A stretch of DNA of 64,000 bases from Parasphingopyxis algicola (lineage in GTDB: Bacteria; Pseudomonadota; Alphaproteobacteria; Sphingomonadales; Sphingomonadaceae): positions 2,306,501 through 2,370,500 of the forward strand of contig NZ_CP051131.1 of NCBI RefSeq assembly GCF_013378075.1. The letters run 5' to 3'. Below, in pieces: positions 46,301-59,588 of the stretch. The notes under the pieces were generated by a model that was not told the origin of the DNA, did not search any database, and worked only from the letters and a program-made list of their open reading frames with translations. Position numbers and translations under genes: made by a program. Every line of letters begins with the position of its first letter. Position 1 is the first letter of the stretch.

Positions 46301-46307
46301 GACTTTC

Positions 46308-46412
46308 TGTCAGACTCGACCTTGTGATCGAGCGCCGCAACGGGATTTTCTGTCAGGCCTCGGCTGCGCCTCGGCGCGGCACCGGCGACATTGCGCCAGC
46401 AATGTTCTGACA
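46308..46412. repeat. Four-way-junction repeat, copy A
   Basis: 105-nt palindromic element. Basal stem TGTCAGA (46308-46314) with TCTGACA (46406-46412). Left 18-nt hairpin 46315-46332 (CTCGA/TCGAG). Right 18-nt hairpin 46388-46405 (ACATTGC/GCAATGT, loop GCCA). The central arm closes with CGCCG/CGGCG, but its interior (46338-46382) is not the long stem seen in copies B and C. It lies 7 bp after prs. No open frame. Confidence 0.75.
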
Positions 46413-46478
46413 AGCCCCCTTCGACAGACTGGCCTTTGATTGCGTAGAGAAAACGCAAGACGCGCGGGAGGAGAGACC

Positions 46479-54073: not shown

Positions 54074-54180
54074 CCGTCATTGCGAGCGGAGCGAAGCAAT
54101 CCAGAGTAACAGGCGATGCGCGTGCGGCCCTGGATTGCCGCGTCGCCCCGAACCGAGTTCGGGCCTCCTCGCAATGACGG
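54074..54180. repeat. CGTCATTGCGAG palindromic repeat between metX and metW
   Basis: 107-nt element with perfect 13-bp ends CCGTCATTGCGAG / CTCGCAATGACGG (54074-54086, 54168-54180). Inner arms are GCAATCCAG/CTGGATTGC and CCCGAAC-cga-GTTCGGG (54147-54163). The terminal motif is a widespread bacterial intergenic repeat. Here it would lie in the metX-metW transcript and could form a stable RNA structure between the two genes. Confidence 0.7.
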
Positions 54181-55334: not shown

Positions 55335-55455
55335 AGAGAAGCGGCGCTAGGGCGCGGGGGGCGGAGTTGTCAAACGTTCGCGGGTGTTGCGGCGCTATGC
55401 GGTGCAATTATCTGTCGGCAACTCTCTCACAAAGATTCCGCCGCGATTGTTTGAT

Positions 55456-55589
55456 TGTCAGACTCGACCTTTCGGTCGAGCGCCGCACCAGCCCGCTCCC
55501 CCTCCCGGCCTCCCATAGAATATACTGAGTGGGAGGCCGGGAGGGGGAGCGGGCTGGTGCGGCGATTTCGCGCTAGCGAAATTCTGACA
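55456..55589. repeat. Four-way-junction repeat, copy B
   Basis: 134-nt element. Basal stem TGTCAGA (55456-55462) / TCTGACA (55583-55589), extended outward by TTGAT/ATCAA. Left hairpin 55463-55480 (CTCGACC/GGTCGAG, loop TTTC). Central arm: 55481-55515 pairs perfectly over 35 bp with 55530-55564, loop 14 nt. Right hairpin 55565-55582 (ATTTCGC/GCGAAAT, loop GCTA). It lies in the 343-bp gap upstream of metX. The remaining gap holds only the remnants listed next. Confidence 0.85.
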
Positions 55590-55600
55590 ATCAAAATCCC

Positions 55601-55675
55601 GGTGCGGCGAACTTCCGACAGAAAGTTTCTGACAAAAAGAATCTGCCGTGATTTCCTGCCAAGGAAATTCTAACG
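55601..55675. repeat. Two right-end remnants of the four-way-junction repeat
   Basis: First, GGTGCGGCG, then an 18-nt module 55610-55627 (AACTT/AAGTT), then TCTGACA (55628-55634). Second, an 18-nt module 55651-55668 (ATTTCCT/AGGAAAT, loop GCCA) followed by TCTAACG, a degenerate TCTGACA. Their modules differ in sequence but keep length 18. The second abuts the stop codon of the zinc-ribbon gene. Confidence 0.6.
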
Positions 55676-55677
55676 AA

Positions 55678-56403
55678 CTAAACCCCTTCGAACGGAATGA
55701 ACGCGAGGTTCAGTTCCTCGGCGTTGCGCGGGATATCGATTTCGGCCGAGTTGAACTCGACCATTTCGCGCGGCGGCAGGGTGCGCTGCGGCGCCTGGAT
55801 CGTCCAGTCGTAGACGACCGCGCCCTGCGCGTTGCGCAGTTCGGCGCGGATATCGGGCACGCGCTGCTCCTCGTCGGTCATGTTGACGATCCGGCCCGAG
55901 ATCGAGAGCAACTCATGGCCGCTGGCGAGCGTCCGCCGCTCGGGGCTGCGCACGAGCTGGACGTCGAGCGCGCTGTCGTTCGCCGCGCCGCCGAGGCCGG
56001 CGACGAAACCGGGCGGCCCGAACCAGGCGACAGCGCCGACCCCGGCGCCGAGCAGGAGGAAAATCCCGATCGCTATCGCCGTCCACATCTTCGCCGGATT
56101 GCGCCGCGGCTTGAAGGGCGGCTCGTGCGCGAACGGATCGCTATCGCCGATCGCTCCGGAGCGGGCCGCCGGTTTTTCGACCTGCGGCTCTTCTGCCAGC
56201 GGTTCGGGAAATTCCTGCTGGACGGGCGCGGGCGGCGGTGGCGATGGCGTCACCGGTTGGGGCGGCGCCTCGGGTACCGTTTCCGGTCCTTCGGCGAACC
56301 AGCTATTCTTGCAATTGGCGCAGCGGACCTGCCGTCCGTCCACGCCGATCGCCGTGTCGGGCACCAGATACCGGGTTGAACAGGCGGGACAAACGAGGAT
56401 CAT
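55678..56403 (-). CDS. Zinc-ribbon membrane protein (MJ0042/DUF3426-like)
   Basis: 241-residue protein. N-terminal zinc ribbon MILVCPACSTRYLVPD ... VRCANCKNSWF (two CxxC, residues 1-36), then a Pro/Glu-rich linker (about 40-100), one membrane segment at about 107-130 (WTAIAIGIFLLLGAGVGAVAWF), and a periplasmic Ig-like/DUF3426 domain (about 145-241). Function unknown. Divergent from ftsEX in this order, as in many alphaproteobacteria, which suggests a cell-envelope role; this is inference. The 3' end abuts repeat remnants. Confidence 0.84.
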   Translation of the reverse strand: MILVCPACSTRYLVPDTAIGVDGRQVRCANCKNSWFAEGPETVPEAPPQPVTPSPPPPAPVQQEFPEPLAEEPQVEKPAARSGAIGDSDPFAHEPPFKPRRNPAKMWTAIAIGIFLLLGAGVGAVAWFGPPGFVAGLGGAANDSALDVQLVRSPERRTLASGHELLSISGRIVNMTDEEQRVPDIRAELRNAQGAVVYDWTIQAPQRTLPPREMVEFNSAEIDIPRNAEELNLAFIPFEGV

Positions 56404-59394: not shown

Positions 59395-59408
59395 GCGGGG
59401 AGCCTGTT

Positions 59409-59543
59409 TGTCAGAACATTGCTGGTGCAATGTCGCCGCACCAGCCCTCTCCCCCTCCCGACCTCCCATTGAGTGTACCCTGGTGGGAGGCCGGGAGGGG
59501 GAGAGGGCTGGCGCGGCGCTCAACCGACAGGTTGAGTCTGACA
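59409..59543. repeat. Four-way-junction repeat, copy C
   Basis: 135-nt element between the convergent plsC and hisC. Basal stem TGTCAGA (59409-59415) / TCTGACA (59537-59543). Left hairpin 59416-59433 (ACATTGC/GCAATGT, loop TGGT). Central arm 59434-59468 with 59484-59518 (33 of 35 bp paired, loop 15 nt). Right hairpin 59519-59536 (CTCAACC/GGTTGAG, loop GACA). The ACATTGC module is on the right in copy A and on the left here. Confidence 0.85.
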
Positions 59544-59588
59544 AAAAAGGAACCTGCGCCGCTCCACCGTCAGATCGAGTGCGACACC

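Follow-up and report, generated by a model that had tools for sequence, protein, structure and literature searches.

The window, a 64-kb stretch of the Parasphingopyxis algicola genome, contains several copies of a modular repeat. The repeat unit consists of a tag (TTTGTCAGA), an 18-nt hairpin (7+4+7) and a foot with the consensus CGCSGCACC, and is smaller than the element proposed in a preliminary description of this DNA. Units pair in inverted orientation, with their tags outward, around a long palindromic arm, and nine of them were detected in the window at E < 0.01 with a covariance model. Copy A comprises a left unit on the plus strand (46305..46343; tag TGTCAGA, hairpin CTCGACC/GATCGAG with one mismatch, foot CGCCGCAACGG), a degenerate middle unit on the same strand (46348..46385; TGTCAGG-hairpin-CGCGGCACC, 18.2 bits in the covariance model) and a right unit on the minus strand (46382..46415; ACATTGC/GCAATGT). 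In copy B a plus-strand left unit (55453..55491; CTCGACC/GGTCGAG, loop TTTC) and a minus-strand right unit (55554..55592; ATTTCGC/GCGAAAT) flank a central arm (55481..55564), a module that recurs in other genera of the Sphingomonadaceae. Two further minus-strand units lie outside copy B: an outer unit (55599..55637; AACTTTC/GGAAGTT), which forms a direct repeat with the right unit, and a degenerate outermost unit (55640..55678; ATTTCCT/AGGAAAT), which reaches the stop codon of a minus-strand gene at 55678-56403. Copy C has a plus-strand left unit (59406..59444; ACATTGC/GCAATGT), a central arm (59434..59518) whose halves (59434-59468 and 59484-59518) are complementary at 33 of 35 positions, and a minus-strand right unit (59508..59546; CTCAACC/GGTTGAG).

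Inspection of the sequence confirmed that the three copies lie where the preliminary description had placed them and that they possess the basal stem TGTCAGA/TCTGACA and hairpins of exactly 18 nt; the ACATTGC module is indeed found on the right side in A and on the left side in C. The central arms that it had assigned to all three copies are present in B and C, but the middle of A is occupied by the degenerate unit and has no plain closing stem. Its statement that modules of different sequence each keep their pairing and length holds in general, although the left stem of A has one mismatch, and the modules AACTT and ATTTCCT in its list are real but belong to the two units outside B.

When folded as single-stranded DNA, copies B and C are predicted to adopt at minimum energy a perfect four-way junction with zero unpaired bases between helices. 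The arm of B forms 36 bp with a 12-nt loop and the fold lies far below those of shuffled sequences (z -16.4); in C, 34 of 36 arm positions are paired (z -13.7). Since the two halves carry different hairpins, a four-way junction is predicted instead of one long hairpin. The fold of copy A is weaker (z -3.1); this copy is a decayed three-unit version of the element. A second kind of repeat coexists with these elements in the window, where a CGTC-type REP pair, assigned by eye, is located at 54075-54179 (CGTCATTGCGAGC and an inverted partner), flanked by a methyltransferase-like and a homoserine acetyltransferase-like gene. This pair likewise consists of tagged inverted palindromes behind a gene, but belongs to another sequence family; a congener (L118) has a TGTCAGA element at this position.

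A covariance model of the unit, built from 63 copies, identified 161 units in the 3.67-Mb P. algicola genome. Among the 150 of these that were listed we distinguished 77 clusters, including 23 plain inverted pairs and 20 in which such a pair has additional units to one side; the remainder are single units or direct arrays. Direct neighbours are mostly spaced 44-45 nt apart, and inner inverted pairs span, from tag to tag, 135 bp in 29 of 51 cases and 134 bp in 10 of 51. Units are also present in eight of nine congeneric genomes of these marine bacteria (139, 134, 72, 33, 27, 14, 12 and 5 units, the last in a 66%-complete genome); no unit was detected in the ninth, a fragmented, 87%-complete assembly. 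Outside the genus, 28 of 30 genomes lack units and the other two each yield a single marginal match (E about 0.005). A pattern scan of 84,980 species genomes, in which the 18 hairpin positions were left free, returned 108 stretches, 97 of them in Parasphingopyxis or in three close MAGs classified no further than Sphingomonadales or Sphingomonadaceae and 11 in unrelated taxa, the organism having been checked for every locus. The preliminary description had envisaged a modular family of hairpins that keep their structure while their sequences are interchangeable, and this is supported both genome-wide and genus-wide.

The elements are concentrated at the 3' ends of genes. With genes called by a simple codon model that had learned from the window, none of 62 clusters in the P. 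algicola stretches lies inside a gene; 30 occupy convergent, 27 co-directional and 5 divergent gaps, compared with 54, 133 and 50 for all neighbouring gene pairs in the same stretches (chi-square p 0.00016). The relatives show a similar distribution, with 55 convergent, 40 co-directional and 2 divergent among 97 clusters versus 130, 412 and 123 gene pairs. A median of 15 nt in P. algicola and 11 nt in the relatives separates the elements from the stop codon, and 53/87 gene ends here and 101/150 in the relatives have the element within 20 nt of the stop. On the chromosome, where parS-like sites (one exact, one with a mismatch) are found at 2.396-2.398 Mb, the clusters crowd towards the origin: the nearest fifth of the replichores holds 40 of the 77 clusters (KS p 6e-11), the two replichores contain 49 and 28 clusters, and the intervals from about 0.27 to 0.86 Mb and from 3.04 to 3.53 Mb are devoid of units, all for the 150 listed of 161 units. 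Either replication-linked spread or better retention in conserved regions would give such crowding.

The hairpins are variable in sequence and constant in form, with 86 stems and 38 loops represented in 350 hairpins of 18 nt and the 7+4+7 arrangement found in 369 of 429. In the 63-row alignment 98.2% of 441 stem cells pair, versus 61.3% in shuffles, and 147 cells are changed on both sides, with two-sided changes in all seven stem pairs. Because the rows of this alignment had been preselected for at least six of seven pairs, the pattern scan with the hairpin left free provides the fair test of pairing. The 129 distinct hairpins that it found in Parasphingopyxis and close MAGs have 7/7 pairs in 104 cases, 6/7 in 14, 5/7 in 10 and 3/7 in 1, so that at least six pairs are formed in 118/129, in contrast to none of the 11 matches in other taxa. 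Within the four main stem families (326 hairpins) we counted 139 two-sided paired changes, 96 one-sided changes and 6 two-sided unpaired changes; this count replaces a version with five consensus sequences (180 two-sided versus 125 one-sided) that forced in hairpins of other families. The first stem pair is A-U in 33/63 rows and C-G in 29/63. The TGTC of the tag is invariant in the alignment, although detection of the units required this motif, and the constancy of tag and foot is therefore inflated. TGTC is unpaired in a single unit and pairs with the partner unit in the junction.

The loops are informative with respect to the strand and the type of nucleic acid in which the structure may be maintained. 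The loop begins with T and ends with C in 321/350 hairpins and is closed by a C-G pair in 322/350, whereas its middle bases are free. Read on the opposite strand, loop and closing pair become c-GNNA-g, and d(cGNNAg) is reported in the title of Nakano and others (2002; in the reference list of PMC2984261) as a motif that forms stable DNA tetraloops. Energies calculated with DNA parameters favour the bottom-strand hairpin in 313/350 cases and the top-strand hairpin in 22/350. It is possible that the elements instead represent structured 3'-UTR RNAs, in which the cloverleaf would act in the transcript, for example by blocking exonucleases or limiting readthrough, and pairing would be selected at the RNA level. 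The proximity to stop codons and the rarity of divergent gaps (5/62 and 2/97) are in keeping with this explanation, as is the observation that the elements fold as well with RNA as with DNA parameters. However, among 917 sense-strand cells of co-directional elements, 10 are G-U, 13 are A-C and 22 are other mismatches, and hence there is no excess of G-U, albeit in only 23 cells. The loops are of the GNNA/TNNC type, and only 82 of the 321 T..C loops read GNRA on the bottom strand, which indicates that conservation does not concern the RNA tetraloop motif. The species differ from one another at many sites, and no match to Rfam 15 was obtained at the gathering score in the window. The structured RNA, one of the readings offered in the preliminary description, is thus weakened, and we consider it distinctly unlikely. 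An intrinsic terminator was rejected, since the copies read lack a T-run behind the stems. The absence of a G-U excess, together with loops that fit cGNNAg, favours constraint at the DNA rather than the RNA level. The family offers a clean case of pairing that is kept while the stem sequence is replaced, with signs of constraint at the DNA level.

Most hairpin stems belong to a small set of families (CTC, ATT, ACR, AAC, CCT and some rarer ones), CTC being the commonest (59 of 181 units) and CTCGACC the commonest stem. The two units of an inner inverted pair almost never belong to the same family: such pairs number 0/51 in the P. algicola genome, where 11.1 are expected, and 4/83 in the relatives, where 16.1 are expected. 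Direct neighbours avoid the same family less strictly (5/62 versus 12.2 expected here, 1/36 versus 7.3 expected in the relatives). All four exceptions in the relatives are included in these counts; two of them (L093 and L094) start 35-36 bases from a contig end and are possible assembly artefacts, L121 looks misfiled by the family rule, and L192 seems to be a genuine exception. For two natural copies with the same family on both sides, each located at a contig end, the fold is a single linear hairpin. Two other formulations were tried and discarded. A rule of exactly one CTC-family side per pair (31/51 versus 21.8 expected) disappears when same-family pairs are excluded (31.0 expected), and a grouping by one C-starting stem (45/51 versus 25.6 expected) was dropped, as several families start with C.

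In anatomy and placement the elements resemble two known types of bacterial repeat. Di Nocera, De Gregorio and Rocco (2013, PMC3733652) describe CGTC-tagged REPs, mostly from Alphaproteobacteria including sphingomonads, whose terminal unpaired tag CGTC is in many repeats replaced by TGTC; CCTC is a further variant. According to the sections of that report consulted here, they have stems of 8-9 bp, almost always starting with A/T pairs, loops of 4-5 nt and a short tail, mostly CCA; they form dimers, often heterodimers, near 3' ends in mostly convergent or co-directional gaps, and lack a dedicated transposase. The Parasphingopyxis units share with them the terminal TGTC tag, a loop length (4 nt) within this range, the heterodimeric arrangement, the position near 3' ends in mostly convergent or co-directional gaps and the lack of an associated transposase, as judged from Y1 searches and, for other transposases, from 20 proteins near dense copies. 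Inverted pairs predominate in the Parasphingopyxis family and head-to-head dimers among CGTC-tagged REPs, arrangements that may or may not correspond. The Parasphingopyxis units differ in their 7-bp stems, whose first pair is nearly as often C-G as A-U, in the foot CGCSGCACC in place of the CCA tail, in the long arm and in having several stem families on one tag and foot. As the stem and the tail do not agree, the repeats are not members of the CGTC REP families as defined. REPINs are inverted doublets of short palindromes with a spacer, located between genes and predicted to fold in single-stranded DNA, as set out in the part of Bertels and Rainey (2011, PMC3116915) consulted. The 51 inner inverted pairs in the P. 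algicola stretches examined are likewise inverted doublets with a spacer. In contrast to the single long hairpin of REPINs, B and C have the four-way junction as their minimum-energy fold, although the same-family exceptions do fold linearly; nor does the P. algicola genome encode a RAYT over the cut-off.

The central arm has a wider distribution than the unit, being present in 41 of 149 sampled Sphingomonadaceae genomes at E up to 1e-4 (38 outside the genus and 3 inside) and also on Novosphingobium and Sphingomonas plasmids, including pSA1 and pNP2-R2. Arm elements of other Sphingomonadaceae combine the same arm with varied side hairpins, and some of the 22 stretches that were folded are predicted to form four-way junctions. 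They carry other tags (such as CTGTTTG/CAAACAG and TTTGTC/GACAAA) and often longer side hairpins (e.g. L243, L252, L259 and L238). No description of this arm repeat of several Sphingomonadaceae genera was found in the open-access literature searched, and the same search, which included the consulted sections of PMC3733652, did not reveal the Parasphingopyxis family. The Parasphingopyxis repeats are a new, unusually modular REP-like family, akin to CGTC REPs and REPINs in anatomy and placement. Novel features are many different stems combined with a single tag and foot, an almost absolute heterotypic rule, the geometry of the junction and unrelated hairpins at shared sites; the heterotypic rule in particular is a sharper case than the heterodimer preference of CGTC-tagged REPs.

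These observations lead us to consider it probable, with moderate confidence, that the elements are genus-specific REP-like (REPIN-like) non-coding DNA repeats in the 3' ends of genes, a reading that includes proposed structure at the DNA level, turnover of the stems and spread by a non-Y1 route. The preliminary description had listed a REP-type sequence moved by a Y1 transposase, a MITE and a structured RNA as candidate identities, of which the REP-type is the best in anatomy and gene context, but the Y1 component is not borne out. Inverted doublets of tagged hairpins between genes correspond to REPIN anatomy as presented in the consulted part of PMC3116915, and a Y1 gene over the cut-off is present in 2 of 10 genus genomes, so the elements might be envisaged as non-autonomous REPINs whose Y1 (RAYT) transposase resides elsewhere or has recently disappeared. 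The best match to PF01797 in the P. algicola genome, however, scores 13.2 bits, below the cut-off of 23, and 8 of 10 genus genomes lack a match at E up to 0.01. Within the genus, neither 3.3-kb Y1 locus contains a unit above threshold (best unit match E 0.88). Among 149 family genomes, Y1 is found in 24, the arm in 41 and both in 10, an association that is not significant (Fisher p 0.13), and a search for motifs in 27 Y1 loci yielded only two short partial arm matches. We accordingly judge movement by Y1 to be quite improbable. PF04986 (IS91-type Y2) gave no match in the 10 genus genomes, a result that is uninformative as the control was also without a match.

Mobilisation as a MITE by a DDE transposase acting on TGTCAGA terminal inverted repeats would account for the inverted ends and the near-constant length of the inner pairs, but appears very improbable: tags are repeated inside arrays, no consistent target duplication was seen by eye at seven aligned sites, and a scan of 20 proteins encoded between dense copies returned ordinary or unassigned proteins (his genes, transporters, a methyltransferase) and no transposase. 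Among these 20 proteins there was thus also no sign of an autonomous copy flanked by units. A phage origin was also rejected, no match to the element having been found in a phage collection.

Comparison of sites shared between species bears on the turnover of the stems. We compared 42 element pairs at 22 sites, aligning the flanks outside the elements (68-90% identical); two of 44 initial pairs had been dropped, one of them lying within the P. algicola genome and the other having less than 200 bases of flank (15/88 agreements versus 17.3 expected before their removal). Hairpin families at shared sites agree no better than chance, with 15/84 same-side agreements versus 16.4 expected, or 8/44 versus 10.2 expected when one pair per site is taken. 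Mirror matches, examined in a late test, amount to 20/84 (16.2 expected, p 0.18) and, with one pair per site, to 16/44 (10.7 expected, p 0.052), so that the side swapping and module recombination suggested in the preliminary description receive only a hint of support at shared sites. Nor are the arm-plus-loop cores of shared-site pairs (mean similarity 0.830) closer than those of random between-genome pairs (0.841). Near-identical junctions do occur, such as CGGGTTCAGTAG(A)GTTTGTCAGAACC in L169 and L189, in which the CTC unit is found on opposite sides of the arm. Sites are shared in 38/61 site pairs from P. algicola and 49/63 from the other genomes, in loci fetched because they bear elements. 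The unselected window, in contrast, shares 0/7 foreign element sites and 0/3 covered site pairs of A and B, which counts against simple ancestry, as do the choice of the compared loci for carrying elements and the state of site A in congeners.

Site A was followed in six of eight congeneric stretches that could be anchored at the end of prs (G008 and G009 were left out). It is empty in G002, with the same gene neighbours, and G003, G004 and G005 have no unit in the part shown. G001 and G006 (L299 and L304) possess a repeat pair behind prs that by eye looks CGTC-type, and the same 3' end thus looks to attract different repeat families. Gene 3' ends may therefore be hot spots at which apparent exchange reflects independent insertion; hairpin exchange in old elements and repeated insertion at favoured 3' ends both fit the data.

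Under the REP-like DNA reading, structure would matter in single-stranded DNA, with the complement strand presenting stable cGNNAg hairpins. As the stem sequence appears to be free, copies may swap stems when they recombine through their nearly identical arms and tags, or successive insertions at permissive sites may substitute one stem for another. With the same family on both sides, an element would be perfectly palindromic over about 60 bp per arm and would fold linearly; such pairs might be lost through palindrome instability or fail as junctions, leaving heterotypic survivors. Copies would be propagated independently of any resident Y1 transposase; neither movement nor a responsible enzyme was observed. 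A more specific version, which we regard as unlikely, is that an unrecognised non-Y1 system of Parasphingopyxis acting on folded single-stranded DNA reads the tag, the cGNNAg loop and the geometry of the hairpin but not the stem, which would make stems free, exchangeable parts; the perfect four-way junction would then be the working intermediate, and the requirement for it in place of a linear hairpin would forbid equal stems on the two sides.

Pairing could also be maintained by template switching instead of selection. In this case the elements would be a neutral mutational product in which imperfect stems are repaired by template switching and homotypic copies disappear by deletion, with neither recognition nor function. 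The excess of two-sided over one-sided changes within families (139 vs 96) and the homogenised cores are compatible with this, and palindrome instability would leave behind just such a heterotypic pattern. The fixed 18-nt length (369/429), the T..C loop ends (321/350) and the closing C-G pair (322/350) combined with free middle bases are nevertheless unexpected for such a product, and 161 copies are not expected from correction alone, so that we hold a neutral origin to be unlikely. The consulted sections of PMC3733652 state that the preference of CGTC-tagged REPs for heterodimers has 'no obvious explanation' and leave their mover open as well. Both puzzles should be testable with the REP-like repeats of Parasphingopyxis, which provide many copies, a constant tag and foot, a quantified heterotypic rule and a copy-rich genome without a Y1 gene over the cut-off; P. 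lamellibrachiae DSM 26725 and P. marina GrpM-11 are named strains that carry the elements.

Two variations in the arrangement of the elements were observed elsewhere in P. algicola. At two places (L023 880-1250 and L051 150-560, near 2.706-2.712 Mb), an arm of a second type (GCGGAGATGGCAGAGGCTCCGG...CATCGGAGGGCGGTGCCGCG) lies next to one half of the usual arm or takes its place. At 2.541-2.546 Mb (L215), elements or single units are located between and beside the genes of a histidine biosynthesis cluster.
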